This document shows positions 43,870-59,618 of a DNA stretch of 64,000 bases, piece after piece. The position numbers and the translations under genes are program-made. The notes below the pieces were generated by a model, which was not told the origin of the DNA, did not search any database, and worked only from the letters and a program-made list of their open reading frames with translations. Source of the stretch: Clostridia bacterium (GTDB taxonomy: Bacteria > Bacillota > Clostridia > Christensenellales > Aristaeellaceae); contig JAFWQU010000003.1 in assembly GCA_017508975.1 (NCBI GenBank), positions 1 through 64,000 on the forward strand. The letters run 5' to 3'. The number at the start of each line of letters is the position of its first letter. Within the stretch, counting starts at the first letter, position 1.

Positions 43870-46800
43870 TTACTTCTTGCCGCCATCCTTGCCGCTGCCG
43901 TCCTCGGGAGCGGAGGCAGGCGCGGCCGGTTCCTCACCCAGCCGGAGCAGCTCGTTCCGCCAGATCATAGCCATCTGCTCGGCGACCGTCTCCGGGGCGT
44001 CGGGATACAGGGCGCCCAGCAGCGCCTCGTGCTCGGCGGCCACGGCATTGAAGGACTGCCGGTACGCGCTCAGCGCGCCGCGCAGGTCATCGCCGCCGGC
44101 GGTATAGATTCCGCTGAGGCGCTGGTTCATCGCGGTGACCCACAGCCGCTGGCTCTTGCGGAAGGCTTCCGCGTAGTCGTCCCGGGTCAGCGCGGTCTCC
44201 AGCATCGTCATCCCGGTCACGTGCAGATTGCCGTTCACGGGATCCAGACCGACCCGGATCAGGACTGTGCCGTCCTCGCCGTCTGTGAACTCCAGCCGGT
44301 TCGACAGGCCCTCGGGCATCAGTCCGCCGTAGACGCTGCCGACCACGCTGTCCGGACGCGCCGCCGGCGCGTTGCCGTACAGATAGCACAGCTCCGTGCA
44401 CTGCCGCATCCACAGCTGCGCCATGGTCCTGCTCACCCGGGCCGTGTCCTCCGGCCACAGCAGGCTCAGCACCTGCTTCAGATTCTGGGCATAATTCTCA
44501 AACAGTGCCTGCTCCGCCGTGAGGTGGATCCGCGCTTGCGGGCCGCAGGTGCCCAGCATCTCCCCGTATTCCTCGGAGACCGCCTCGTGCCACAGGCTCT
44601 CCGCCTGCGCCCAGGCCGCGGCCGTGTCGGCCTCCGTCGCCGCCTCCGCGGTCAGCCGCCGCACCTCCGCCAGGACTGCCCCGTGCGTCGGGCAGGGGGT
44701 CAGCGTGTAGAGCGCGCCGTCCAGGCCCAGCGCAGTCAGCTCCGTGACGCAGCTGGTATTCGGGCCCGCGCCCTCCACGGGCGGGAAACCCGGCTTCAGC
44801 GGGCTGCGGACCTCGTTGGAGATCACCGGCACATGGGTGTGCCGGCCTCCGTCATAGTAGCCGGTCGCGCTGTTGTAGATCCAGTCAAATCCCATGTCGG
44901 ATTCCTTCACGGTGTAGCTGAAGGTGAAGGAGTGGCTCTGGTTGACCTTGAGGACGGACAGGGTGCCCAGATAGACCCAGCCCAGATTGTCGTAGACCTC
45001 GACGTTCTCGAGGTCACACTCGCCGGTGTTGGTGACCGTGATCACATAGAGAATGATATCGTTCGGCTCATAGTAGCCCTTGGCCGGCCGGTTGATCTCC
45101 TCCTTCTGGAGACTCATGCCGGCGGGGATCTCGCCCCTGTGGCCGGTGGTCGCGCTGGCGTCGCCGGAGTCGGTGCGCGGGGCGCCGCTCTCGTCGATGC
45201 CGGAGGCCGTCGCGGTGTTGAAGACCGATCCGGTGCCCGCGTCGCCGATCGTCACGGTGTAATAGACGTCCTCGCTCTTCTTCTCATGCGGCGCCAGGGT
45301 CGGGTACAGCGCAAGGGTGCCGCCGGGGTTCGGGGACAGGGGGTCTGTCACGAGGACGTCGGTCATGACACTGTCGGAGTCGTTCTCGACGGTGACCACA
45401 AAGTGAATGACCTCGTCCTGCACATAGTAGGAACCATTGTTCGGCTCGCCGACGCGCGTCTTGGTCACATGCAGGCTGCCGGGCCGCTCCGGCTCCTCCC
45501 AGGTCTGGATGGTCACGGCGTTGGACTTCTGCGTGCAGACCTCCCCGGAGGCCGGGTCGGTCCATCTGGCCAGGGCGGTGTTGATCACGGGGCCGCCGAT
45601 ATCCTCCGGCTGGATCGTGTAGGTGAAGGTCACGTCGCGGTTCTCATGCGGCTGGAGCAGGTGCAGGGTCTGATCCTCGCTGCTGCCCGGCAGCTCGTCG
45701 TGGATCTTCACGGAGTCGATCGCGACGTCGCTGTCGTTGGTGACTTTGACGTTGAAGGTTACCTTCTCGCCCACCACGTAGCCATGGGGGTCGTTTTTGG
45801 CGGTGCTGGTCTCCGTCTTGACCAGGGTGACGCTGGTCACGGTCCAGGGCTCGGTGTCCTGCACCGCGTGGGAGAGCTCATGGGGATTCGTGTAATACTC
45901 CAGGTCCTCATAGGAGCAGACACCCTTGAACGTGGCGTGCATTCTGCCGTCCGCGTGCTTCGCCTCCCCGTCGAAGACGAAGGTGACCGGCTGGGTCCAG
46001 CTCTCGCCCGGGTAGAGGAGCTTGGGGGGCGCCGCATGGGTGGGAACGGTGGCGTACCCGTCGTCGAGCTCGATCCGGACGGTCTTCACCGGGAACTTGC
46101 TGTTATTGGTCACCACCGCCGTGTAGTGCACCGGCTGGGTCTGGTTCGCGGCGTTCAGGGTCAGGGGCTCCGCCGTGGAGGTGGTCACCTTCAGCGAGAG
46201 AGACGGAACCTTGGGCCCGCTGGGCGTGCCGTCCAGCTCGATGTTCACGTCCTTTTTGTTCGAATTGATGAAACCGTAAGGGTTGAAATCGTGACTGTCG
46301 TTATGGGCGACGCCGTAGATCTGTCCGACAAGCGCGCCTGCCTCCAGATCGGGGTCCTCAACCCAGAGACTCCCGGTCTCGGTAAAAGTAGCGCCGGGTT
46401 CGATGTCTGAGAATGTGTTGCTGCTGCAGCCGCTGAGCTTCCAAATGTTGGAGCCGTTTGCCCAGCTGAAATTGACCCCGAAGAATTCAAGCGGAGCGTC
46501 GCCGGTATTCTGGAACTCTAGGGTGACCGGAATGGTATCGCCCTTCTTTTTGCCCAGGCCCGAACCGGTTGTGACGCTGACCAGGGTGAGCTCCGCCCTG
46601 GGCTCGGCGTCCAGGGGGATGTTCAGCACTTTGGCCTGGGACCGGATGGGAAGAGCGTCCTCCACGTCGGCTTTGACGGTGAGGGTTCCGTGCAGCGCCT
46701 TGTCATCCAGATTCTCCGGGATGAGCTGGATCTGCAGGGTGAAAGAGCGCTCCTCGCCGGGCGCGAACAGGACGCCCGCCGGCTCGTCCGAGCTCTGCTG

Positions 46801-48186
46801 CCGGGTGGGGTTGTAGCTGCCGACGCTCGCGTCGGCGAATGTGATGCCGGAGTAGGTCCAGGGCACCCCGCCGGTGTTCTTCACACCGATGCCGACGCTG
46901 ACCCAGTCGCCGGCCTTCTTGCCCGCGCCGGAACCGGGGGTCACCTTGGTGATCGTCACCTCCGGCTCCTCCTTGAGGGTCAGGGTGATGTGTACGGGCA
47001 CCCTCGGGGAATTGATCCTGCCCTCGGGCGTGTCCGCAACCGCTTCCACGGAGCCGCTGATCTGCAGCGGATCGATGTCCTCCGCCCCGACAGACAGATA
47101 GATGGGAATGGAATAGGTTTCTTCGGGCTTGACCTTGGTCCCGGTTCCGGTGGTCAGGCCTGTCGCTTTGCTGACGGCCAGGTCGCCGCTCGCGCTGTAG
47201 AATCTCAGTCCCTGGTAGGTCCACTCCTCCTTGCCGGTATTTTTCACCATGATATTGACGCGGGCTTTCTCACCCACCACCGCCTTTGCGGTGCTGGGTT
47301 CCACCGACACAATGGTGATATTCCCCGGGTCTGACTCGTCCGTTTTCGGGATCAGCTGGACTTGGTAGGGGACATAGTACGAGCTGACCGAGCCGTCGTG
47401 ATGCTTGCCATACGCGCTGGCAGTTCCGATCACTTTGCAGGACTCCGCCTCCTTGGACACGATCCTGAATTTAAAGGGGACAGTCAGCGTCTCCCCCGGT
47501 GCGAGATAGGTTCCGCCGCCGGATACAAGATTAAAATCGCCGCCAAAAACGGTTTCGCCGTTCTCGCGGCGGGCGTTAATGCCCTGGAATTGGATGGTCA
47601 CCTGGCTGGTGTTCTTCACCACGGCCGAGAAACTCACCCATGCGCCGACCCTCGCCACGGTCGGGACTCCGGAGATAGAGACGATGGTGAGGCGGGCCTC
47701 CTTCGACAGCTCCTCCGGGACCAGCTGCGGGATCTCCCTTGTCTCCACATGGGAGGAATCCCGCTTGCAGACCCGCGCCTGGAGACCGGGCATTTCCACA
47801 GTGGCCGGTTTCGTAGTGACCCACTCGCCCCAATCGTGGCCCAGGGCCGGGACCGTGCTGTACTGTTTATGCAGACTGATTCGCTTGCAGATACGCACTT
47901 CCTTGCCGTCCTCGGTGCAGGTCGCCTCGGTGACGGTCTGCGCGGGACCCCAGTCGTGGCCCAGCGCGTGGATGGTTTTTTTCTCACCGTACGCGCCGCA
48001 TTTCCGACAGCGATAATGGATAAAGCCGTTCTCCGTACAGGTGGGGTCCAGCCAGTCCCCCTTCACCCAGACGTGCTCTCCATCCTTGCAGGGTACGGGG
48101 CCGGCCGCCAGCGCGGACAGCTCGGGGGCCGTCCCGAGCACCAGCAGCGCGGTCAGCAGCAAACACACGATTCGTTTCATCCGCAT
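43870..48186 (-). CDS. Giant secreted protein with Ig-like repeats
   Basis: 1,438 residues, signal peptide ending LSALAAGP. Residues ~33-150 hold two Cys-rich modules ending ALGHDWG, a module common in Clostridial surface proteins. Eight or so Ig-like domains follow (~160-1125) of the CARDB/DUF11 type, marked by blocks such as VSFSAVVKNTS, VTLEFQNTGDAPL, TFNVKVTNDSDV and LYVITVTNTG. Residues ~1170-1420 are helical and contain two diverged copies of a ~90-residue unit (LLWPEDTARVSRTMAQLWM and LLGALYPDAPETVAEQMAM). The tail ends GSGKDGGKK, with no LPXTG sorting motif. Likely secreted or surface-associated; role unknown. Confidence 0.85.
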   Translation of the reverse strand: MRMKRIVCLLLTALLVLGTAPELSALAAGPVPCKDGEHVWVKGDWLDPTCTENGFIHYRCRKCGAYGEKKTIHALGHDWGPAQTVTEATCTEDGKEVRICKRISLHKQYSTVPALGHDWGEWVTTKPATVEMPGLQARVCKRDSSHVETREIPQLVPEELSKEARLTIVSISGVPTVARVGAWVSFSAVVKNTSQVTIQFQGINARRENGETVFGGDFNLVSGGGTYLAPGETLTVPFKFRIVSKEAESCKVIGTASAYGKHHDGSVSSYYVPYQVQLIPKTDESDPGNITIVSVEPSTAKAVVGEKARVNIMVKNTGKEEWTYQGLRFYSASGDLAVSKATGLTTGTGTKVKPEETYSIPIYLSVGAEDIDPLQISGSVEAVADTPEGRINSPRVPVHITLTLKEEPEVTITKVTPGSGAGKKAGDWVSVGIGVKNTGGVPWTYSGITFADASVGSYNPTRQQSSDEPAGVLFAPGEERSFTLQIQLIPENLDDKALHGTLTVKADVEDALPIRSQAKVLNIPLDAEPRAELTLVSVTTGSGLGKKKGDTIPVTLEFQNTGDAPLEFFGVNFSWANGSNIWKLSGCSSNTFSDIEPGATFTETGSLWVEDPDLEAGALVGQIYGVAHNDSHDFNPYGFINSNKKDVNIELDGTPSGPKVPSLSLKVTTSTAEPLTLNAANQTQPVHYTAVVTNNSKFPVKTVRIELDDGYATVPTHAAPPKLLYPGESWTQPVTFVFDGEAKHADGRMHATFKGVCSYEDLEYYTNPHELSHAVQDTEPWTVTSVTLVKTETSTAKNDPHGYVVGEKVTFNVKVTNDSDVAIDSVKIHDELPGSSEDQTLHLLQPHENRDVTFTYTIQPEDIGGPVINTALARWTDPASGEVCTQKSNAVTIQTWEEPERPGSLHVTKTRVGEPNNGSYYVQDEVIHFVVTVENDSDSVMTDVLVTDPLSPNPGGTLALYPTLAPHEKKSEDVYYTVTIGDAGTGSVFNTATASGIDESGAPRTDSGDASATTGHRGEIPAGMSLQKEEINRPAKGYYEPNDIILYVITVTNTGECDLENVEVYDNLGWVYLGTLSVLKVNQSHSFTFSYTVKESDMGFDWIYNSATGYYDGGRHTHVPVISNEVRSPLKPGFPPVEGAGPNTSCVTELTALGLDGALYTLTPCPTHGAVLAEVRRLTAEAATEADTAAAWAQAESLWHEAVSEEYGEMLGTCGPQARIHLTAEQALFENYAQNLKQVLSLLWPEDTARVSRTMAQLWMRQCTELCYLYGNAPAARPDSVVGSVYGGLMPEGLSNRLEFTDGEDGTVLIRVGLDPVNGNLHVTGMTMLETALTRDDYAEAFRKSQRLWVTAMNQRLSGIYTAGGDDLRGALSAYRQSFNAVAAEHEALLGALYPDAPETVAEQMAMIWRNELLRLGEEPAAPASAPEDGSGKDGGKK

Positions 48187-50253: not shown

Positions 50254-51696
50254 TCACGGGGACGTGTCCCGTTCGCAGAGGCACCAGTCATACGGCATGC
50301 GCGGGTTCCGGGCGCGCCAGGCTTCCGCCATCTCGAGGGCGCGCAGGCGGTTCCCGGGGTTCCGGATCTCCTCAAAGGCGTCGCGCACGCTGTGGAGACA
50401 GCAGGTGTGCTCCAGGGAGGTCAGGCTCTCCCAGCTGCCCGCCCCGGCGTTGTAGCGCGCGACATGGTCCCGGGCGATGATCGTGTCCACGGGCAGCCAG
50501 CAGCCGGCGGTCCAGGTGAGCAGCGCCGCCAGGGCCAGTACCGCGCAGATCCGCAGGTTCGGCCGGATGGCTCTGGCTAGGCAGGCGAGCAGCGCCAGCA
50601 GGATCATGGCCATCCCCCAGACGGTTACCAGCCGCAGTGTCGTCAGCCCGTAGGCCTGCATGTACAGGCGCATGCGGAAGAACGCGGAGGCGTCGATGAC
50701 GCCGGTCAGCACCGCCGTCAGCCCGCTGAGAAACCGCACCGCGCGGCTCTCCCGGCACAGGGAGATCGCCGGGAGAATCAGCGCCAGGGTCAGCAGCGCC
50801 AGTACCGTCAGCTGGAAAAAGCCGGAGCGCGCGTAGGCCGCGTAGCCGCCGCTCATGCGGACGCTCTCCACGCCGGCGAAGAGATAGCGGATCTGCACAT
50901 AGGCGAAGGCCGCGTAAACCAGCGCGAGCGCCGCCAGGGCCGCGCAGAAAACCGCCGGCTGCGCCGCGGGCCTGTGCAGGGGCGGCAGCTCCCGGGCGGG
51001 GCACAGCGCGGTATAGAAATGCGAGAAGAGCAGCAGCCCGGTCCCGGCGCTCAGCAGCAGCCGGAACAGCGAGCGGGAGTTGAACCGGGAGACGCCGGCC
51101 GTCAGCAGGCCGGAGAAAACGCTGTCCGCGGAGCTCAGCAGCGCGAGCGCCAGTCCTCCGGCGATCAGCCCCGCCGCGGCGGCGGCCAGCCACCGCTCCG
51201 CCCGGGCTTTTCCCATCCGCCGGGACGCCTCGCGGAAGGGCAGCTCCACCTGCGACACCAGCCCCGGCAGAAAGCGCCGCACACCCTCCAGCAGACCCTC
51301 CCCGCTCAGCGGCGGGAACGTCCGCCGGCCGGTCAGCGTGGTAAGCGCCTGCGCCGTCAGCAGGATCAGGACCGGGAGGCTCAGCAGGCGCAGCGTGTCG
51401 TTCGCGTGCACCGCGTAGGTCCCGGACAGCGCCGCCGAGAGCGCCAGGAGACCCCAGCCCATCGCGTTTCCGCGCACCGGGCGCAGGCTGCTCCGCCGCA
51501 TGCCCAGGACCACCGCGGTCAGGACAGCGTGGCTGACCGTGATGCCGATGCCCGGCGCGTGAAACGACGTCAGCGGGTCGCGCAGGAACCAGAACGTCGC
51601 CGCGGACAGCAGCGCGGCCGCCAGCAGGACCGGCCAGCCGCGCAGCGCCTCCGGGGTCTGCGGGAGCTGCGGGGTTTTCTCACGTGTTTCTTCCAT
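50254..51696 (-). CDS. DUF4173-like polytopic membrane protein
   Basis: 480 residues with about 11-12 hydrophobic segments. It has the hallmark RMSGGYAAYARSGFFQLTVL block and CRESRAVRFLSGLTAVL seen in DUF4173/DUF4153 proteins, and a soluble C-terminus of ~90 residues (TSLEHTCCLHSVRDAFEEI). Function unknown; some relatives sit in signalling operons. GAGGATCATGG lies before the ATG. Divergent from the flavinylation operon. Confidence 0.8.
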   Translation of the reverse strand: MEETREKTPQLPQTPEALRGWPVLLAAALLSAATFWFLRDPLTSFHAPGIGITVSHAVLTAVVLGMRRSSLRPVRGNAMGWGLLALSAALSGTYAVHANDTLRLLSLPVLILLTAQALTTLTGRRTFPPLSGEGLLEGVRRFLPGLVSQVELPFREASRRMGKARAERWLAAAAAGLIAGGLALALLSSADSVFSGLLTAGVSRFNSRSLFRLLLSAGTGLLLFSHFYTALCPARELPPLHRPAAQPAVFCAALAALALVYAAFAYVQIRYLFAGVESVRMSGGYAAYARSGFFQLTVLALLTLALILPAISLCRESRAVRFLSGLTAVLTGVIDASAFFRMRLYMQAYGLTTLRLVTVWGMAMILLALLACLARAIRPNLRICAVLALAALLTWTAGCWLPVDTIIARDHVARYNAGAGSWESLTSLEHTCCLHSVRDAFEEIRNPGNRLRALEMAEAWRARNPRMPYDWCLCERDTSP

Positions 51697-51747
51697 ACTC
51701 CATGATCCTCCTCGGAAACCGGAAGAACTCCGGTGTTTTTCGGGATC

Positions 51748-51776
51748 AGGATAGCACGGCCGTTCTGTTTTGTCAA
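51748..51776 (-). promoter_or_regulatory. Promoter of the DUF4173-like gene
   Basis: Minus-strand TTGACA, 17-base spacer, TATCCT. Confidence 0.7.
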
Positions 51777-51784
51777 CAAAAATT

Positions 51785-51799
51785 TATCGAATAACGATA
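51785..51799. promoter_or_regulatory. Palindrome TATCG-n5-CGATA, candidate operator
   Basis: TATCGAATAACGATA sits between the two divergent promoters, nine bases upstream of the DUF4173 gene's -35 and ~48 upstream of the flavinylation -35. A dimeric regulator could control both. Confidence 0.4.
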
Positions 51800-51846
51800 G
51801 AATTTTACCGTTGTGCGGTTTGATCCGTCCGGGCGAGCGCTGTGCC

Positions 51847-51875
51847 TTGCGAAACGGGCGCGCATGTGTTATAAT
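51847..51875 (+). promoter_or_regulatory. Promoter of the flavinylation operon
   Basis: TTGCGA, 17-base spacer, TATAAT, with GAGGA just ahead of the first ATG. Confidence 0.7.
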
Positions 51876-51921
51876 GAGGCAGAATCTTTCTGAAGGAATA
51901 CTTTTTGCGCGAGGAAATCGC

Positions 51922-52284
51922 ATGAGGAAAGGGATTGTCTGGGCGCTGATCGCGGCGGTCGCGCTCTGCGCGGCGGCGCTGCTGTTCTTCCGGGGAAAGC
52001 CGGCGGCGGCCGGGGACACCGTCGTCGTCACGGTGGACGGCCGGGAATACGCCCGGGTGCCCGTGGGCCAGCGGCAGCTGATTACCGTCCGCCAGGACAA
52101 CGGCGCGGAGAACGTGATTGAGATCACGGCGCGGGGCGCGGTGATGCGCTCCTCGACCTGTGAAAACCAGCTGTGCGTTCACATGGGCGAGGTCACGCTG
52201 GACAACTGGGAATACCGGCCGAACGGGGCCTTCATCATCTGCCTGCCCAACCGGGTGAGCGTGGAATTGGCGGTGAGTGAGTGA
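51922..52284 (+). CDS. NusG-II-domain extracytoplasmic protein
   Basis: 120 residues: one membrane/signal helix (~4-24), then a small beta domain with VDGREYARVPV, and STCENQLCVHMG followed by AFIICLPNRVSVEL. This is the NusG domain II-like family with a C-x4-C pair and CLPN block often encoded beside Rnf and flavinylation genes. The pair may bind metal or form a disulfide. Start chosen for GAGGA just upstream; a longer frame has none. The stop overlaps the apbE start by four bases. Confidence 0.85.
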   Translation: MRKGIVWALIAAVALCAAALLFFRGKPAAAGDTVVVTVDGREYARVPVGQRQLITVRQDNGAENVIEITARGAVMRSSTCENQLCVHMGEVTLDNWEYRPNGAFIICLPNRVSVELAVSE

Positions 52285-53270
52285 GAAAGAGAGTCCTTGC
52301 CGCGCTGCTGGCGCTGCTGCTGGGCGTGGCCGCAGCGGGGCGCCCGGCGCACGCGGAGAAAACCAGCGGCGTGGGGTACTATTTCGACACGGTGATTACC
52401 CTGACGCTCTATGACGCGGAGCCCGGGCTGTTGGACGAGCTCTGGGCGATGTGCAAAGGATACGAGGAGCTGCTGAGCAAGACCGTCGAGGGCAGCGACG
52501 TAGACCGGATCAACCGCGCGGAGGGCGTGCCGGTGGCCGTCTCGGCGGAGACGATGGAGATCCTGCGCACGGCGCGCGCGGTCCACGACGCGTCGGGCGG
52601 CGCCTTCAGCATCACCCTGGCGCCGGTCATCGCGCTGTGGGACTTCACCGGCGGCACGAACCGCATGCCCACGGAGCAGGAGCTCGCGGAGACGCTCCCC
52701 CTGGTGGACGACAGCCGCATCGTGCTGGGTGACGACGGGACCGTGACGCTCCCGGCGGGGATGCAGATCGACCTGGGCGGCATCGCGAAGGGCTATATCG
52801 CCGACAAAGGCGCCGCGCTGGCCCGTGGCCGCTGCACCGGCGCGGTTCTCAACTTCGGCGGCAATGTCTACACCGTGGGCAGGAAGCCGGACGGCTCCGG
52901 CTTCAACGTCGGCATCCGCGACCCCCAGGGTCCGGAGGGCAGCAGCAAATATGTGCTGCGCACCCAGGACGGCACGGTGGTCACCAGCGGCATCTACGAA
53001 CGGTACTTTGAACTGGACAGCGTGCGGTATCACCACATCCTCGACCCCAAGACCGGCGTCTCGTCCATGTCGGACCTGGCGAGCGCCACCGTGGTCTGCG
53101 GGAGCAGCATGCTGGCGGACGCCGTGGCCACGGCCTGCATTGTCCTGGGCTGCCGGGACGCTCTGGTTCTGCTCAACAGCCTGGAGCTGGACGGGCTGCT
53201 GATTACCCGTGACGGCGAAGCCTATGTCACTCCGGACTTTATCGAGAAATGGCAACTGCGCTCAGTGTGA
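52281..53270 (+). CDS. apbE: ApbE, FAD:protein FMN transferase (exported)
   Basis: 329 residues. GTG start overlapping the upstream stop. Signal peptide MRKRVLAALLALLLG ending PAHAEK; no lipobox cysteine. Family blocks: YYFDTVITLTLYD, FSITLAPVIALWDF, IDLGGIAKGYIADKGA, LNFGGNVYTVG and YHHILDPKTGVSS (metal-binding Asp). ApbE moves FMN from FAD to a threonine of the [S/T/A]GAT motif outside the membrane. The gene just downstream encodes a protein with eleven such motifs, the obvious substrate. Confidence 0.95.
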   Translation: MRKRVLAALLALLLGVAAAGRPAHAEKTSGVGYYFDTVITLTLYDAEPGLLDELWAMCKGYEELLSKTVEGSDVDRINRAEGVPVAVSAETMEILRTARAVHDASGGAFSITLAPVIALWDFTGGTNRMPTEQELAETLPLVDDSRIVLGDDGTVTLPAGMQIDLGGIAKGYIADKGAALARGRCTGAVLNFGGNVYTVGRKPDGSGFNVGIRDPQGPEGSSKYVLRTQDGTVVTSGIYERYFELDSVRYHHILDPKTGVSSMSDLASATVVCGSSMLADAVATACIVLGCRDALVLLNSLELDGLLITRDGEAYVTPDFIEKWQLRSV

Positions 53271-53301
53271 GCGGGCATCACGACCGAGAGGAGCACACAT
53301 C

Positions 53302-56300
53302 ATGGAAAACAAGCAGAAGAAATCCCTGCCCCCGTTTGTGATTCTGGGGATCATCGCTCTGGTGGCCGCGCTGGCGCTGGCGGTGACCAACGCCATCACG
53401 GAGGGCCCGATCCAGGCCCGCCGTCAGCAGCAGCTCCAGGAGGCTTTCTCCGCCGTGCTGCCGGCAGACGCCTATGAGAGTCTGTCCACCAGCGGCCATG
53501 ACAGCGTGAGCAACCTCGTCCGGGCCAAGGACGCGAGCGGCAATACGCTCGGCTACTGCGTGCAGGCCTCCGCGCAGGGCTATGGCGGCCCCGTGGCGGT
53601 CACCCTGGGCGTGGACCCCGACGGCAGGGTCATCGGCTCCGTCATCGGCGACGGCAGCTTCCAGGAGACGGACGGCTTCGGCAAGCGCTGGCTGCAGGAG
53701 CAGAACGTCGAGAAGCTCTTAGGGCTCGACGCGGTGCAGGGCGGCGCCTTTGAGGCACTCTCCGGCGCGACGCGGACCTCCAACGCGGTCCTGGCCGCCA
53801 CCAACAGCGCCCTCAAGTGTGTCTCCGAGGCCGCGCTCGGGAAGGAGCAGACCGGCACGGTCGTCTTCGGCGCGCCGGTTGCGCTCGCGGCCGCCGGCGG
53901 CGAGGAGGCCTCCGGCGCCGCGCCGAACGCGGTGCTGGTCGGCGAGGCCGAGGGCTTCGGCGGCGAGAAGATCTCTGTCCGCGCGAAGCTCGACGCCGAG
54001 GCGAAAATCGAGTCGCTGACCGTGGACGCCTCCACGCAGACGCCCGGCATCGGCCAGCGCTGCGCTGACGCGGAGTTCACGGATCAGTTCATCGGCAAGG
54101 CCATCCCCCTGACCCTCGGCGAGGATGTGGACGCGCTCTCCGGCGCGACCGTCACCTCCACGGCCGTCGTGACCGCACTCAACGGCGCGCAGGCGGAGAG
54201 CCCCTGGAAGCCCGGCGCCACCCTCGAGGGCCGTGCGGTGGGCTTCGGCGACGGGGAGGTTGTCGTCCGGGTGACCCTGGACGGCGAGGCAAAGATCGAG
54301 ACCGTCCGCGTGGACGCCGCCTCGCAGACGCCCGGCATCGGCCAGCGCTGTGCCGACGCGGAGTTCACCGACCAGCTGATCGGCAAGGCCGCCCCCCTGA
54401 CCCTCGGCGAGAACGTGGAAGCGCTCTCCGGCGCGACCGTCACCTCCACCGCGGTGGTGGAGGCCCTCAACGGCGCGGCCGCGGTGGATACCGGCGCGGA
54501 AGTGCTCACCGAGATCTACGCGGATGAGAGCGGCAGCGTGGGCGTCAACGAGCAGGGCGCCGCGAAGCTGACCCCGAACGAGAATTATTCCGGCACCGTG
54601 ACCGTGGCCTACACCGTCGAGAACGGCAAGGTCGTCGCCGCGGGCGCCCCCGAACCGGCCCCCGCGGCGGAGGCCGCGGTGGAGGCGGCCGTCGAAACCG
54701 CCGGGGCCGCCGGGCTGACCAGGACGCAGACCGTGCCGCCGCTGTACAACGGCTCCCCCGACACCGAGATCACGGTCACGGTCGAGGCGGACGCCGAGGG
54801 CGCGATCACCGCGCTGACCATGGACCTCTCCAGCCAGACCCCCGGCTTCGGCCAGAAGTGCGCGGACGCGTCCTTCGTTGACCAGTTCATCGGCAAGAAG
54901 GCACCCCTGGCGCTGGGTGAGGACATCGACGCCGTCGCCGGCGCAACCATCACCAGCCAGGCCATCGTGGACGCCGTGAACGAACTGCTGAGCGCTGCCC
55001 CGGCGGCAGCTGAGGCGGCCCCTGCGGAGGAAACCGCCGGAAAGACCGTCACCCAGACAGTCCCGCCGCTCTACGACGGCTCCCCCGACACCGAGATCAC
55101 GGTCACGGTCGGGGCGGACGCCGAGGGCGCGATCACCGCGCTGACCATGGACCTCTCCAGCCAGACCCCCGGCTTCGGCCAGAAGTGCGCGGACGCGTCC
55201 TTCATTGACCAGTTCATCGGCAAGAAAGCGCCTCTCGCGCTGGGTGAGAACATCGACGCCATCGCGGGTGCCACCATCACCAGTCAGGCCATCGTGGACG
55301 CCGTGAACACGGCCCTGGCCGCGGAAGCGCCCGCCGCGGAGGAGCCCGCTGTCGAGGAGACTCCCGCCGAGGCGCCCGCCGTGGAGGAGACCCCCGCGGA
55401 GGAGCCCACTGTCGAGGAGACTCCCGCGGAGGCGCCTGCCGCCGTGGAGGAAGCCCCCGTCGAGGAGCCGTCCGCTGAGCGGGTTCCCGCCGAGCGCGGC
55501 GCCGGCACCTGGGAGGCCTACACGAAGGTTGCGCCGTTCATGTACGGCATGGACGGAACCCGGATCGGCGTGAAGGTGACCACGGACGAAGCAAATACCA
55601 TCACCGCGCTGGAGGTGGACGCCGCCAGCCAGACTGCCGGCCTCGGCAGCAAGTGCGCGGAGCCCGCGTTCACGGAACAGTTTATCGGAAAGAGGGCCCC
55701 GGTGGCGCTGGGCGAGGGCATTGACGCCGTCACCGGCGCGACCATGACCAGCCAGGCGGTCGTCGACGCCGTCAACACGGCGCTGACCGTGACGCCCGCG
55801 GAGAAGGCTGCGCTGGAAGCCGCCGCTGCCGCCGCTGCGGAGCCCGCTGCAGAGGAAGAACCCGCCGCCGAGGCGCCCGCTGTGGAGCTGGTCTCCGCCA
55901 AGAAGGGCGCCGGCACCTGGGAGGCCTACACGAAGGTCGCGCCGTTCATGTACGGCATGGACGGAACCCGGATCGCCGTGAAGGTGACCACGGACGCCGA
56001 GAACACCATCACCGCGATCGAGGTGAACGCGGACAGCCAGACCGCGGGTCTGGGCAGCAAGTGCGCGGAGCCCGCGTTCACAGAGCAGTTCATCGGGAAG
56101 AAAGCCCCGGTGGCGCTGGGTGAGGGCATTGACGCCGTCACCGGCGCGACCATGACCAGCCAGGCGGTCGTTGACGCCGTCAACTCCGTCCTGGCCATGA
56201 CGCCCGAGGAGAAGGCCGCCGCCGAGGCTGCCGCGGCTGTCACCGAGGAGCCCGCCGCGGAAGAGGAACCCGCCGCCGAGGCGCCCGCTGTGGAGCTGGT

Positions 56301-57795
56301 CTCCGCCGAGAAGGGCGCCGGTACCTGGGAGGCCTACACGAAGGTCGCGCCGTTCATGTACGGCATGGACGGAACCCGGATCGGCGTGAAGGTGACCACG
56401 GACGAAACAAATACCATCACCGCGCTGGAGGTGGACGCCGCCAGCCAGACCGCCGGTCTGGGCAGCAAGTGCGCGGAGCTCGCGTTCACGGAACAGTTCA
56501 TCGGGAAGAAGGCCCCGGTGGCGCTGGGCGAGGGCATTGACGCCGTCACCGGCGCGACCCTGACCAGCCAGGCGGTCGTCGACGCCGTGAACTCGGTGCT
56601 GGCCATGACGCCTGAGGAAAAGGCCGCCGCCGAGGCTGCCGCGGCTGTCGCCGGGGAGCCTGCCGCAGAGGAAGAGCCCGCCGCCGCGGCGCCGGCCGCG
56701 GTGCTGAAGCCGGCCGACGTGGGCGCCGGCACCTGGGACGCCGCCGCAAAGGTCGTGCCGTTCATGTTCGGCATGTCCGAGACCGAGATCACCGTGAAGG
56801 TCACCACGGACGCGGAGAACACGGTCACCGCCCTGGAGGTGAACGCGGGCAGCCAGACGGAGGCCCTTGGCGGCAAGTGCGCGGAGCCCGCCTTCACGGA
56901 GCAGTTCATCGGCAAGAAAGCTCCCTTCGTGCTGGGCGAAAATATTGACGCTGTCGCCGGCGCGACCCTGACCAGCCAGGCGGTCGTGGACGCCGTCAAC
57001 TCTGTGCTGACCACGGCGGAAGCCGCGGAGGAGGCCCCGGTGGAAGAACCCGCCGTGGAGGAAGCCCCGGCGGAGGAGCCGGTCGTTGAGGAAGCTCCGG
57101 TGGAAGAACCCGCTGTCGAGGAGGCCCCCGCGGAGGCGCTCGCAGCCGCTCCGCTGAGCCTGACCCAGACCGTCCCGCCGCTCTATAACGGCTCCCCCGA
57201 CACCGAGATCACCGTGACGGTCGAGGCAGACGCCGAGGGCGCGATCACCGCGCTGACTATGGACCTCTCCAGCCAGACCCCCGGCTTCGGCCAGAAGTGC
57301 GCGGACGCGTCCTTCATCGACCAGTTCATCGGCAAGAAGGCGCCTCTGGCGCTGGGTGAGAACATCGACGCCATTGCGGGTGCCACCATCACCAGCCAGG
57401 CGATTGTGGACGCGGTGAACACCCTGCTGGCCGCGCCCGCCGGTGAGGAAGTGCCTGCGGAGGCGCCTGCCGCCGCTCCGCTGAGCCTGACCCAGACGGT
57501 CCCGCCGCTCTATAACGGCTCCCCCGACACCGAGATCACCGTGACGGTCGAGGCGGACGCCGAGGGCGCGATCACCGCTCTGACGCTGGATCTCGCCAGC
57601 CAGACCCCCGGCTTCGGCCAGAAGTGCGCGGATGCGTCCTTCATCGACCAGTTCATCGGCAAGAAGGCGCCTCTGGCGCTGGGTGAGAATATCGACGCCA
57701 TCGCGGGTGCCACCATCACCAGCCAGGCGATTGTGGACGCGGTGAACACCCTGCTGGCCGCGCCTGCGGCTGAGGAAGCAGCCCCCGCGGCGTAA
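53302..57795 (+). CDS. Multi-flavin carrier with eleven FMN-binding domains
   Basis: 1,497 residues from the ATG at 53302 after GAGAGGAG. Membrane helix at ~11-30, then an RnfG-like first domain and ten further FMN_bind domains separated by Ala/Pro/Glu linkers. Predicted FMN threonines: 157, 283, 379, 549, 658, 814, 950, 1086, 1222, 1362, 1471, each in [S/T/A]GAT-x-TS. Domains 2-11 share a QTPG/QTAG-type block followed by a cysteine (GQKCAD, GSKCAE, GGKCAE); domain 1 has none there. Domains 6-9 are spaced by exactly 136 residues, so they arose by tandem duplication. Multi-flavinylated extracytoplasmic electron carriers of this kind have been described in bacteria. Upstream ApbE would load it; no Rnf or Nqr genes are in the window. 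Confidence 0.92.
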   Translation: MENKQKKSLPPFVILGIIALVAALALAVTNAITEGPIQARRQQQLQEAFSAVLPADAYESLSTSGHDSVSNLVRAKDASGNTLGYCVQASAQGYGGPVAVTLGVDPDGRVIGSVIGDGSFQETDGFGKRWLQEQNVEKLLGLDAVQGGAFEALSGATRTSNAVLAATNSALKCVSEAALGKEQTGTVVFGAPVALAAAGGEEASGAAPNAVLVGEAEGFGGEKISVRAKLDAEAKIESLTVDASTQTPGIGQRCADAEFTDQFIGKAIPLTLGEDVDALSGATVTSTAVVTALNGAQAESPWKPGATLEGRAVGFGDGEVVVRVTLDGEAKIETVRVDAASQTPGIGQRCADAEFTDQLIGKAAPLTLGENVEALSGATVTSTAVVEALNGAAAVDTGAEVLTEIYADESGSVGVNEQGAAKLTPNENYSGTVTVAYTVENGKVVAAGAPEPAPAAEAAVEAAVETAGAAGLTRTQTVPPLYNGSPDTEITVTVEADAEGAITALTMDLSSQTPGFGQKCADASFVDQFIGKKAPLALGEDIDAVAGATITSQAIVDAVNELLSAAPAAAEAAPAEETAGKTVTQTVPPLYDGSPDTEITVTVGADAEGAITALTMDLSSQTPGFGQKCADASFIDQFIGKKAPLALGENIDAIAGATITSQAIVDAVNTALAAEAPAAEEPAVEETPAEAPAVEETPAEEPTVEETPAEAPAAVEEAPVEEPSAERVPAERGAGTWEAYTKVAPFMYGMDGTRIGVKVTTDEANTITALEVDAASQTAGLGSKCAEPAFTEQFIGKRAPVALGEGIDAVTGATMTSQAVVDAVNTALTVTPAEKAALEAAAAAAAEPAAEEEPAAEAPAVELVSAKKGAGTWEAYTKVAPFMYGMDGTRIAVKVTTDAENTITAIEVNADSQTAGLGSKCAEPAFTEQFIGKKAPVALGEGIDAVTGATMTSQAVVDAVNSVLAMTPEEKAAAEAAAAVTEEPAAEEEPAAEAPAVELVSAEKGAGTWEAYTKVAPFMYGMDGTRIGVKVTTDETNTITALEVDAASQTAGLGSKCAELAFTEQFIGKKAPVALGEGIDAVTGATLTSQAVVDAVNSVLAMTPEEKAAAEAAAAVAGEPAAEEEPAAAAPAAVLKPADVGAGTWDAAAKVVPFMFGMSETEITVKVTTDAENTVTALEVNAGSQTEALGGKCAEPAFTEQFIGKKAPFVLGENIDAVAGATLTSQAVVDAVNSVLTTAEAAEEAPVEEPAVEEAPAEEPVVEEAPVEEPAVEEAPAEALAAAPLSLTQTVPPLYNGSPDTEITVTVEADAEGAITALTMDLSSQTPGFGQKCADASFIDQFIGKKAPLALGENIDAIAGATITSQAIVDAVNTLLAAPAGEEVPAEAPAAAPLSLTQTVPPLYNGSPDTEITVTVEADAEGAITALTLDLASQTPGFGQKCADASFIDQFIGKKAPLALGENIDAIAGATITSQAIVDAVNTLLAAPAAEEAAPAA

Positions 57796-57801
57796 CAAAA
57801 G

Positions 57802-57834
57802 AAACAGCTTCCGGGTCCTCTGGAAGCTGTTTTC
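57802..57834 (+). terminator. Flavinylation operon terminator
   Basis: Stem AAACAGCTTCC/GGAAGCTGTTT followed by TCC, seven bases after the stop. Confidence 0.85.
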
Positions 57835-57836
57835 CT

Positions 57837-57889
57837 AATTCGGAAGAGGGTTTTCCAATTCGGAATGATGAATTCGGAATGCGGAATTG
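57837..57889 (+). repeat. AATTCGGAAT tract
   Basis: Three near copies of AATTCGGAATG(C/A)GGAATT-type sequence; the same tract occurs near 28760, 35125, 42529, 42822 and 58118. Confidence 0.7.
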
Positions 57890-57928
57890 ATATGCTGATT
57901 CACTTCTGGAATGTGAGAGTTTCTTGAA

Positions 57929-58138
57929 GAGATTTCGCGCCTGCGGGCGCGACCAGGTCCGCAGCCGGACTGGCGGCTTTCCGATCGCCCTGGACCTTCG
58001 GCAGCATCCACTTTTGGAGGCATGGGGACAGCAGCAGAAAGGCCGCGTGCCTTCTCCCCTCCCTCGGCAGGGAGGGGTCGGGGGAGGGTTTCCCGCAGCA
58101 CAATATTATTCCGATTTCTGAATTCCGCATTCCGAACT
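57929..58138 (-). repeat. Composite repeat unit, copy 13
   Basis: GATTTCGCGCC-TGCG-GGCGCG, long first hairpin, CCTTCGGCAGCATCCACTTT, GGAGGCATGGGGACAGCAGC, CCTCCCTCGGCAGGGAGG hairpin, then TTCTGAATTCCGCATTCCG. It is the same unit as 42529-42706, inverted. Nothing else is seen in the 57796-58160 gap. Confidence 0.9.
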
Positions 58139-58160
58139 GACCAAGTAGAGGAGGGTTTCC

Positions 58161-59618
58161 ATGATTCTGCGCAAAGCACGGGAGAGCGACCTGAAGGCGC
58201 TGTACGGGCTGTATGAGCTCGTGTCGGAGCGGATGCATGAGAAGGGCGTCGAGCAGTGGGAGTGGGGCAAGTACCCGAACGAGGAGCTGATCGCGGCGGA
58301 CGTCCGGGCGGGGCGCATGTACTGCCTCTACGGGGAGCTGGGCATGATGCTTTCCGTGGCGGTGAGCACCGAGACCTCCCCGGCCTACCGGAACGTCAAC
58401 TGGCTCTTCGGCGTGCGGCCCGGCGTCTTCCACCGGCTGGCGGTACACCCGTCGCTGCAGCGCGAGGGCTTCGGCCGGCAGGCCGTGGCGGACGTGGAGA
58501 CCATCCTGATCTCGCTGGGCTGCGACTCCCTGCGCTGCGACGCGGCGGAGGGCAACGAGATCGGCGCGCGCTTCTACCGCTCGCTCGGCATGCGCAAGGC
58601 CGGCACCGCCTGGATCGAGGACCGGCAGAAGGCCTTCGTCGGCTATGAGAAGCGCCTGACCGAGGACTGCCCGCTGCTCCCGCTGAACATGCATCCGGCC
58701 TTCCGCGCCGGCAAACTCACCCCCTGGGGCGGCGACCGCCTGCGCACCGTCTACGGCAAGGACATCCCCGAGGTGCCCACCGGCGAGAGTCTGGAGGTCA
58801 GCTGCATTCCCGAGTTCCCCTCCACGGACGATACGGGCGTGACCCTGCCGGAGCTCATCTCGACCTACGGCAGCATGCTCGTCGGCCGCTATGACTTCCG
58901 CGGCTTCCCGCTGCTCCTGAAGATCATCGACGCGCAGGAGGCGCTCTCGGTGCAGGTGCACCCGGACGACGCCTATGCCGCCGAGCACGAGGGCGGCAAG
59001 TTCGGCAAGACCGAGGCCTGGCTGATTCTGGACGCCCCCGAGGATGGGGAGCTGGTCTACGGCATCAAGCCGGGCACCGACCTGGAGACGCTGAAGGCCG
59101 CCTGTCAGCAGGGCGCCGCCGTGGAGCCGCTGCTGCGCCGCGTGAAGGTGCATCCCGGCGACGTCTGTTACATCCCCGCGGGCTGCGTCCACGCCATCGG
59201 CGCCGGCATCATGCTCTATGAGATCCAGCAGTCCTCGGACATCACCTACCGTTTCTACGACTGGAACCGCGTGGACACCCAGGGCAAGGGCCGTCCGCTG
59301 CACCTCGAGCAGGCGCTGGCCGTGACCGACCTGACCTTCTCCCCGGATCCGATCCCCGCCCCGGAGATCCCCGTCGCCCGGGTGCTGGACAAGCCCTACT
59401 TTACCCTGGATCTCCTCAACCCCAAGCCGGACTCCCCGGTGCACATCCCGCACATCCGCTCCTTCGGCCTCCTGACCGCCCTGGACGACGGTCTGACCCT
59501 CTCCTGGGAGGGCATGAGCCGCACCCTCAAGCGCGGCGAGTCCCTGCTGATCCCGCAGGCGGCCCCCGCCCTGACGCTCACCGGCCAGGGCCGTGCGGCG
59601 CTGAGCATGCCGAGGTAA
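58161..59618 (+). CDS. GNAT acetyltransferase fused to mannose-6-phosphate isomerase
   Basis: 485 residues; GAGGAGGG precedes the ATG. Residues ~1-165 are a GNAT domain (AVHPSLQREGFGRQA coenzyme A loop, GCDSLRCDAAEGNEIGARFY). Residues ~170-485 are a complete class I mannose-6-phosphate isomerase with NMHPAFRAGKLTPWGG, the metal block SVQVHPDDAYA, KTEAWLILDA and IPAGCVHAIGAG. Zinc ligands His, Glu and His are all present. ManA interconverts mannose-6-phosphate and fructose-6-phosphate. Reading through one uninterrupted frame, the GNAT unit is an in-frame N-terminal fusion, which I do not know as common. Cytoplasmic. Confidence 0.9.
   Translation: MILRKARESDLKALYGLYELVSERMHEKGVEQWEWGKYPNEELIAADVRAGRMYCLYGELGMMLSVAVSTETSPAYRNVNWLFGVRPGVFHRLAVHPSLQREGFGRQAVADVETILISLGCDSLRCDAAEGNEIGARFYRSLGMRKAGTAWIEDRQKAFVGYEKRLTEDCPLLPLNMHPAFRAGKLTPWGGDRLRTVYGKDIPEVPTGESLEVSCIPEFPSTDDTGVTLPELISTYGSMLVGRYDFRGFPLLLKIIDAQEALSVQVHPDDAYAAEHEGGKFGKTEAWLILDAPEDGELVYGIKPGTDLETLKAACQQGAAVEPLLRRVKVHPGDVCYIPAGCVHAIGAGIMLYEIQQSSDITYRFYDWNRVDTQGKGRPLHLEQALAVTDLTFSPDPIPAPEIPVARVLDKPYFTLDLLNPKPDSPVHIPHIRSFGLLTALDDGLTLSWEGMSRTLKRGESLLIPQAAPALTLTGQGRAALSMPR

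Follow-up and report, generated by a model that had tools for sequence, protein, structure and literature searches.

The locus

In the window (the whole stretch of DNA that was analyzed, 64,000 nucleotides), three genes lie in series on one strand, flanked by a promoter-like site and a hairpin:

51847–51875, plus strand: sigma-70-like promoter, TTGCGA-17-TATAAT, the -10 preceded by TG, lying 46 bases ahead of the first gene (sequence scan)
51922–52284, plus strand: gene for a NusG_II domain protein of 120 aa with a hydrophobic N-terminus (PF07009, 1.2e-19)
52281–53270, plus strand: apbE, FAD:protein FMN transferase, 329 aa (PF02424, 4.1e-76, 256.5 bits)
53302–57795, plus strand: mRnfG (multi-flavin RnfG), 1,497 aa with 11 FMN_bind domains (Pfam, motif and RnfG model)
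57802–57833, plus strand: hairpin of 11 pairs with a 9-base loop, then a T run, a possible terminator (read by eye)

Gene calls come from a codon-usage script that had six genes of the window as its training set. The promoter scan of 51500–58300 returned two sites, against a mean of 0.4 in shuffles, and the hairpin fell outside the reach of the automatic scan, whose loop limit is 8. NusG_II-apbE-mRnfG looks like one transcription unit. The apbE gene, placed just upstream by the original prediction, encodes a protein with a signal-like N-terminus (read by eye) and is the sole ApbE match in its own 66%-complete genome. The NusG_II gene adjoins mRnfG or rnf genes in relatives as well. Further upstream in the window, a minus-strand gene (43870–48186) encodes a 1,438-aa protein with a signal-like N-terminus and four DUF7507 stretches.

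The mRnfG open reading frame (ORF) runs from an ATG at 53302 to a stop at 57795. A Pfam search found FMN_bind (PF04205) in 11 stretches of the protein, for a total of 429.3 bits, and a six-frame search of the genome gave 11 separate matches over the ORF at 42.6–51.1 bits each (cut-off 22). The motif [STA]GAT-x-TS is present in all 11 domains, whereas 1,000 shuffles of mRnfG yielded a mean of 0.19 and a maximum of 2 [STA]GA[TS]-x-[TS] motifs. The original prediction, an FMN_bind protein with eleven attachment sites that would fall if fewer than about five domains scored, thus holds at the full count. Hydropathy analysis revealed one N-terminal hydrophobic stretch, with peak windows at residues 9–32, in keeping with the predicted export and membrane anchoring of the chain, which is strongly acidic (220 Asp+Glu versus 75 Lys+Arg).

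The flavinylation motif has been given as D-x-x-[S/T]-G-A-[S/T], with FMN on the last residue (PMC12052999). This strict form fits four of the 11 sites (domains 2, 6, 7 and 8); Ala occupies position 4 in five (domains 4, 5, 9, 10 and 11), and Glu replaces Asp at position 1 in two (domains 1 and 3). Mutation of the Asp to Ala is described as having a minor effect only (PMC12052999), and the form DxxxGAT, given elsewhere (PMC10339131), would allow Ala at position 4. The pattern [DE]xxxGAT fits all 11 sites. With its predicted acceptor threonines, mRnfG has the following layout:

53326–53397, plus strand: N-terminal hydrophobic (transmembrane) segment, residues 9–32 (hydropathy), coinciding with the start of the alignments to the RnfG model and chains
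53338–53826, plus strand: full-length RnfG homology, residues 13–175, holding FMN_bind domain 1, acceptor Thr157, EALSGAT (TIGR01947, PDB 7zc6_G)
53923–54195, plus strand: FMN_bind domain 2, acceptor Thr283, DALSGAT
54208–54483, plus strand: FMN_bind domain 3, acceptor Thr379, EALSGAT, four residues after domain 2
54445–54630, plus strand: Cadherin_5/Big_9-like stretch, residues 382–443, between domains 3 and 4 (Pfam)
54724–54996, plus strand: FMN_bind domain 4, acceptor Thr549, DAVAGAT
55048–55323, plus strand: FMN_bind domain 5, acceptor Thr658, DAIAGAT
55487–57013, plus strand: tandem DNA repeat, period 408, 3.7 copies, 86% matches (domains 6–9)
55513–55788, plus strand: FMN_bind domain 6, acceptor Thr814, DAVTGAT
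55921–56199, plus strand: FMN_bind domain 7, acceptor Thr950, DAVTGAT
56329–56607, plus strand: FMN_bind domain 8, acceptor Thr1086, DAVTGAT
56737–57012, plus strand: FMN_bind domain 9, acceptor Thr1222, DAVAGAT
57130–57778, plus strand: tandem DNA repeat, period 327, 2.0 copies, 95% matches (domains 10–11)
57166–57435, plus strand: FMN_bind domain 10, acceptor Thr1362, DAIAGAT
57493–57762, plus strand: FMN_bind domain 11, acceptor Thr1471, DAIAGAT

The Cadherin_5/Big_9-like stretch scores 28.4 and 24.8 bits, barely above the cut-offs of 26.5 and 23.6. The FMN_bind domains are joined by ten links, nine of which span 17–80 residues, most of them being rich in Ala, Glu and Pro; the shortest, of four residues, occurs only between domains 2 and 3. 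Links of this length and composition lend no support to the rigid form of the flavin wire first proposed for the protein, and a string of tethered domains is more likely. They would fit transfer by tethered collisions better than transfer through a fixed chain, which agrees with "beads-on-a-string" models for multi-flavinylated proteins (PMC11334425). In its tandem FMN-binding domains, outer-face location and association with ApbE, mRnfG resembles the multi-flavinylated extracytosolic proteins already described (PMC8238504, PMC11334425), but it starts with an RnfG part. It likewise shares with SaFMN3 and CbFMN4 an N-terminal membrane segment, followed by FMN_bind domains that are kept apart by flexible linkers in which small residues abound (PMC10339131); those proteins have three and four domains, respectively, against 11 here, and no RnfG part is described for them in the excerpted text of that source. 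SaFMN3 was shown to carry three covalent FMN (PMC10339131). The original prediction also put the chain at the upper end of known lengths, which is borne out: its 11 domains fall under the maximum of 13 sites given for a class of 2,081 multi-flavinylated proteins (PMC8238504) and under a 12-domain relative described below.

RnfG homology of the N-terminal part

Residues 13–175 of mRnfG align with positions 2–186 of the 187 in TIGR01947 (E 4e-23), a match that the original prediction had not recognized. Taken alone, residues 1–195 score 82.5 bits, below the curated cut-off of 102; the whole protein reaches 344.4 bits against the same cut-off, but as a sum over 11 stretches. In the PDB, domain 1 matches best the G subunits of RNF-type complexes with solved structures, four different sequences led by 7zc6_G (E 1.2e-11), and the next is a CbFMN4 domain. 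Two tail domains were compared in the same way: domain 6 matched RnfG and NqrC chains, and domain 4 matched two RnfG chains and, weakly, a lysozyme-named design. Domain 1 aligns nearly end to end with single-domain RnfG (7zc6_G and 9eri_G, of 189 and 207 residues), which has one FMN domain where mRnfG has 11. Among RnfG relatives in the best 80 of 151 confirmed loci from named genomes, 69 have a single domain and 11 have two to seven, several of the multi-domain rows ending at contig ends. The N-terminal RnfG match names a likely electron source for the protein.

Multi-flavinylated RnfGs within RNF clusters are already published (Meheust et al. 2021, PMC8238504), with the proposal that they open a second route for electrons, leading outward, and mRnfG, an RnfG with several FMN-binding domains like these, is a new and large example. 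It differs from the RnfGs presented there in its 11 domains, its NusG_II and apbE partners, and its setting, as no rnf gene is present among the window genes called from 40370 onward. The same source names a Christensenellales subset with a multi-heme domain; we scanned 14 genus sequences and 40 family proteins for CxxCH, found none, and rejected a multi-heme RnfG. None of the literature matches listed is a separate study of multi-flavinylated RnfG. The present analysis adds that the protein begins as an RnfG, that most of the genus encodes it apart from rnfCDEAB, and that its tail is specific to each lineage.

RNF and mRnfG across the genus

Our genus set comprised 12 genomes, own included, all with FMN_bind matches. 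RnfD (PF03116) and RnfA/E (PF02508) were both found in ten of them; these names, and those at locus L018, come from Pfam, and the other rnf names from HMMs built from congeners. In G009, the cluster reads rnfC-D-E-A-B-NusG_II-apbE-mRnfG, with mRnfG last. In nine other congeners, rnfC-D-E-A is contiguous and rnfB follows in eight, the ninth (G010) being cut by a contig end; in none of the nine does an FMN_bind match lie beside the rnf cluster. The start of mRnfG was seen away from rnf in seven of these (G001, G003, G004, G007, G008, G010 and G011), with no rnf gene called beside it. The other two, G002 and G006, have RnfD and gave no match to the RnfG part, and in G006 the gene is represented by its 3′ end alone, where a contig stops. 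Since the rnf clusters of these nine congeners have no FMN_bind neighbor, the unlinked mRnfG becomes the candidate for the missing G subunit. On this comparative evidence, the unlinked multi-flavin gene is likely the G subunit, with G009 alone providing the positional demonstration.

An intact gene of the mRnfG kind is present in five genus genomes, with 11 domains in our own, nine in G005, G010 and G011, and six in G004; it is broken at contig ends in six of the 11 genomes that hold any piece, own counted among them. Two unjoined contig-end pieces in G001 carry nine and four FMN_bind matches, which would make at least 13 domains if they belong to one gene. ApbE was found in nine of the 12 genomes, with no match in G002, G005 or G006; in G004 it is present but does not adjoin mRnfG. 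At the G005 locus, NusG_II is followed directly by the nine-domain mRnfG, without apbE between them. In the NusG_II protein beside mRnfG or RNF, three cysteines are conserved (C-x-N-[QH]-x-C ... C-[LV]-P): they occur in our own sequence, in all six aligned genus rows and in 14 of 14 family hits, which suggests a disulfide, metal or redox role.

RNF and mRnfG across the family

A search with the first domain of mRnfG matched 205 of 250 genomes of the family at E 1e-8 or better. Among the best 141 matches listed, which are ranked by similarity to mRnfG, the ORF is at least 400 aa long in 107, 260–399 aa in 12 and under 260 aa in 22; these are ORF lengths and not domain counts, and one of them (L179) is 916 aa in this listing versus 513 aa in the locus reading. 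A custom HMM was then applied to 40 loci from 39 genomes, chosen for long ORFs and several of them cut by contig ends. It counted 3–12 FMN_bind domains per locus in all 40, the largest numbers being 12 (L163) and 11 (L162). The multi-flavin gene shares its stretch with rnfC or rnfD in 24 of these 40 long-ORF loci, and in 16 neither lies within the stretch read; in three (L172, L184 and L194) it sits between rnfD and rnfA.

Of 116 high-quality genomes in the family, 110 encode RnfD. Genes with an RnfG domain, whatever their length, accompany it in 97 of these 110 and are present in two of the six that lack RnfD (Fisher p 0.004, the six RnfD-negatives being picked by rounded quality values and kinship ignored).

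These surveys bear on whether, in its own species, mRnfG has instead parted from RNF to act as a free-standing multi-flavin carrier fed by another membrane donor. Such a carrier would be in keeping with the self-contained look of the NusG_II-apbE-mRnfG unit, with its promoter-like site and hairpin, and with the absence of any PF03116 or PF02508 match in our own assembly (66% complete) or in G005 (89% complete). However, RnfD is nearly universal in the high-quality family genomes, and a gene kept at 82–86% identity to G011 in four other congeners searched is missing from our own assembly too, so an assembly gap is the simpler cause of the missing RNF. In addition, domain 1 of our own mRnfG shares 84% identity with its counterpart in G011, a genome that has RNF. 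We consider the free-standing carrier rather unlikely. Two genes near rnf in G011 were also sought in our own genome; one gave weak matches only (41% and 32% identity) and the other none, and in G003, G007 and G010 these flanking genes lie on contigs other than that of RnfD, so this comparison weighs neither for nor against a true loss of RNF in the species.

Evolution of the tail

To trace the origin of the domains, we compared their closeness within and between proteins, leaving out three short fragments. Domain 1 was closer to another domain of its own protein in none of ten cases and always nearer a domain of another species; for domains 2–3, their own genome's protein held the closer domain in 16 of 20 cases, and from domain 4 on it did so in 49 of 52. 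By this comparison, domain 1 is orthologous between species, and the later domains, closest within their own protein, appear to have been amplified or homogenized within each lineage. In mRnfG itself, domains 4, 5, 10 and 11 form one group at 91–98% identity, and domains 6–9 form a second at 73–92%.

Repeats this similar make the count of 11 dependent on correct assembly, and we asked whether the number could partly be an artifact. The repeat units match at 86% and 95%, and contig ends break the gene in over half of the genus genomes that hold it, as an assembly problem would predict. Yet the copies differ at 9–42 of 219 bases in the 13 pairs measured, the ORF stays open throughout, and intact relatives carry nine domains in three congeners and, outside the genus, 11 and 12. 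An artifactual count is thus very improbable.

In all 13 within-group copy pairs, dN is lower than dS (dN/dS 0.06–0.37), so the copies look selected to stay intact. Together with family membership, topology and the adjoining ApbE, this selection argues that mRnfG probably belongs to the multi-flavinylated extracytoplasmic carriers, the class to which it was originally assigned. Acceptor sites were scored across genus and family: of 359 hits, four were set aside for gaps, and the acceptor T/S is kept in all 355 scored domains, a conservation that may be favored by the scoring HMM, which was trained on windows around such motifs. GA[TS] is kept in 274 of the 355, and 43 of the 355 read AGA[TS]. 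Some tail domains of relatives (L016, L017, L018, L022 and family loci) have NAT, SAT or SAS in place of GAT, and TAAT stands in 15 of 50 scored first domains; the acceptor T/S is kept in each case.

The extra domains might alternatively be mainly structural or surface-variable repeats, spacer or adhesin-like, with flavin incidental. The lineage-specific amplification, the long acidic Ala/Pro/Glu linkers, the Cadherin_5/Big_9-like stretch and the change of GAT to NAT or SAT in several relatives would all be compatible with such a role. The invariant acceptor and the low dN/dS speak against it, and we regard it as improbable.

A proposed tethered relay behind the RnfG switch

RnfG has been described as the outer-face switch of RNF, taking an electron from the RnfA-RnfE cluster and passing it to RnfD (PMC12174285). 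Ten more flavin domains behind this switch suggest a branch to the outside. The reading we favor, to which we would give an even chance, is that mRnfG is the RnfG of an RNF-type, ferredoxin-driven ion pump, extended by a ten-domain, ApbE-flavinylated tail that passes electrons outward by tethered collisions. ApbE would load FMN on most or all mRnfG sites. The RnfG flavin would draw its electrons, as it does in known RNF, from the RnfA-RnfE iron-sulfur cluster, and part of them would pass to the tail flavins instead of back to RnfD and NAD+. Within the tail, transfer would occur by collisions between domains on flexible acidic linkers, making it a tethered relay and electron store rather than a rigid wire. 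Finally, the tail would hand electrons to acceptors in the cell wall, for example proteins combining FMN_bind and FAD_binding_2. Two such proteins are encoded in our own genome (L001 and L003, the latter a piece, on contigs C15 and C7), both with signal-like N-termini as read by eye. Our literature search met no experiment in which RNF passes electrons outward through such a tail. Also weighing against this reading are the missing RnfD and RnfA/E matches in our own assembly and G005, the sub-cut-off score of domain 1 taken alone, the 16 family loci with neither rnfC nor rnfD in the stretch, the three genus genomes with no ApbE match, the separation of ApbE from mRnfG in G004, the RNF-bearing G002 with no mRnfG match, and the strict motif at just four of 11 sites.

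The tail could instead serve purely as an extracytoplasmic electron store, a capacitor of up to 22 electrons that buffers RNF and has no dedicated terminal acceptor. The near-identity within domains 4, 5, 10 and 11 and within domains 6–8 (89–98% within groups) would lead us to expect similar redox potentials along the tail, as in SaFMN3, which was measured with a single potential of -184 mV (PMC10339131), and copy number varies freely among the five intact genus members (6, 9, 9, 9 and 11). The possible acceptors in the same genome argue against a store without an outlet, although store and relay are hard to tell apart by sequence. We judge a pure store unlikely but deserving of weight.

Extended to the family, the tethered relay would make RNF with a variable-tail RnfG a branched machine, delivering electrons from ferredoxin to NAD+ as well as to the cell wall, with a tail length that varies by rapid tandem amplification (3–12 flavin domains in all, in the 40 long family loci). 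We advance this wider proposal tentatively, as the comparative data leave it somewhat short of an even chance. If true, RNF in much of a gut/rumen Clostridia family is such a machine, its tail differing in length by species. Multi-flavinylated proteins are common in Gram-positive bacteria, and their roles are called unclear in the sources cited. Tying a multi-flavin family to the RnfG position of RNF would specify its electron donor and make it part of an outward branch, open to testing, of a pump that is central to anaerobic energy metabolism, and the variation in domain number among sister species provides a natural series in which to relate flavin number to electron transfer.

Our own genome encodes further FMN_bind proteins. 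On contig C21 (L002:1405–3060), a 551-aa protein with a signal-like N-terminus has a single FMN_bind domain (DAVAGAT), and beyond the stretch that Pfam assigns to FMN_bind it contains another two motifs, both DALSGATMS. On contig C16 (L012:4183–10997) lies a P19-type iron uptake cluster with genes for Iron_transport, FTR1 and FtrD-like proteins, two MacB/FtsX permeases and an ABC ATPase. One of its FtsX permeases carries an FMN_bind domain with DALSGAT, and FMN-binding genes have been reported in P19 clusters (PMC8238504).
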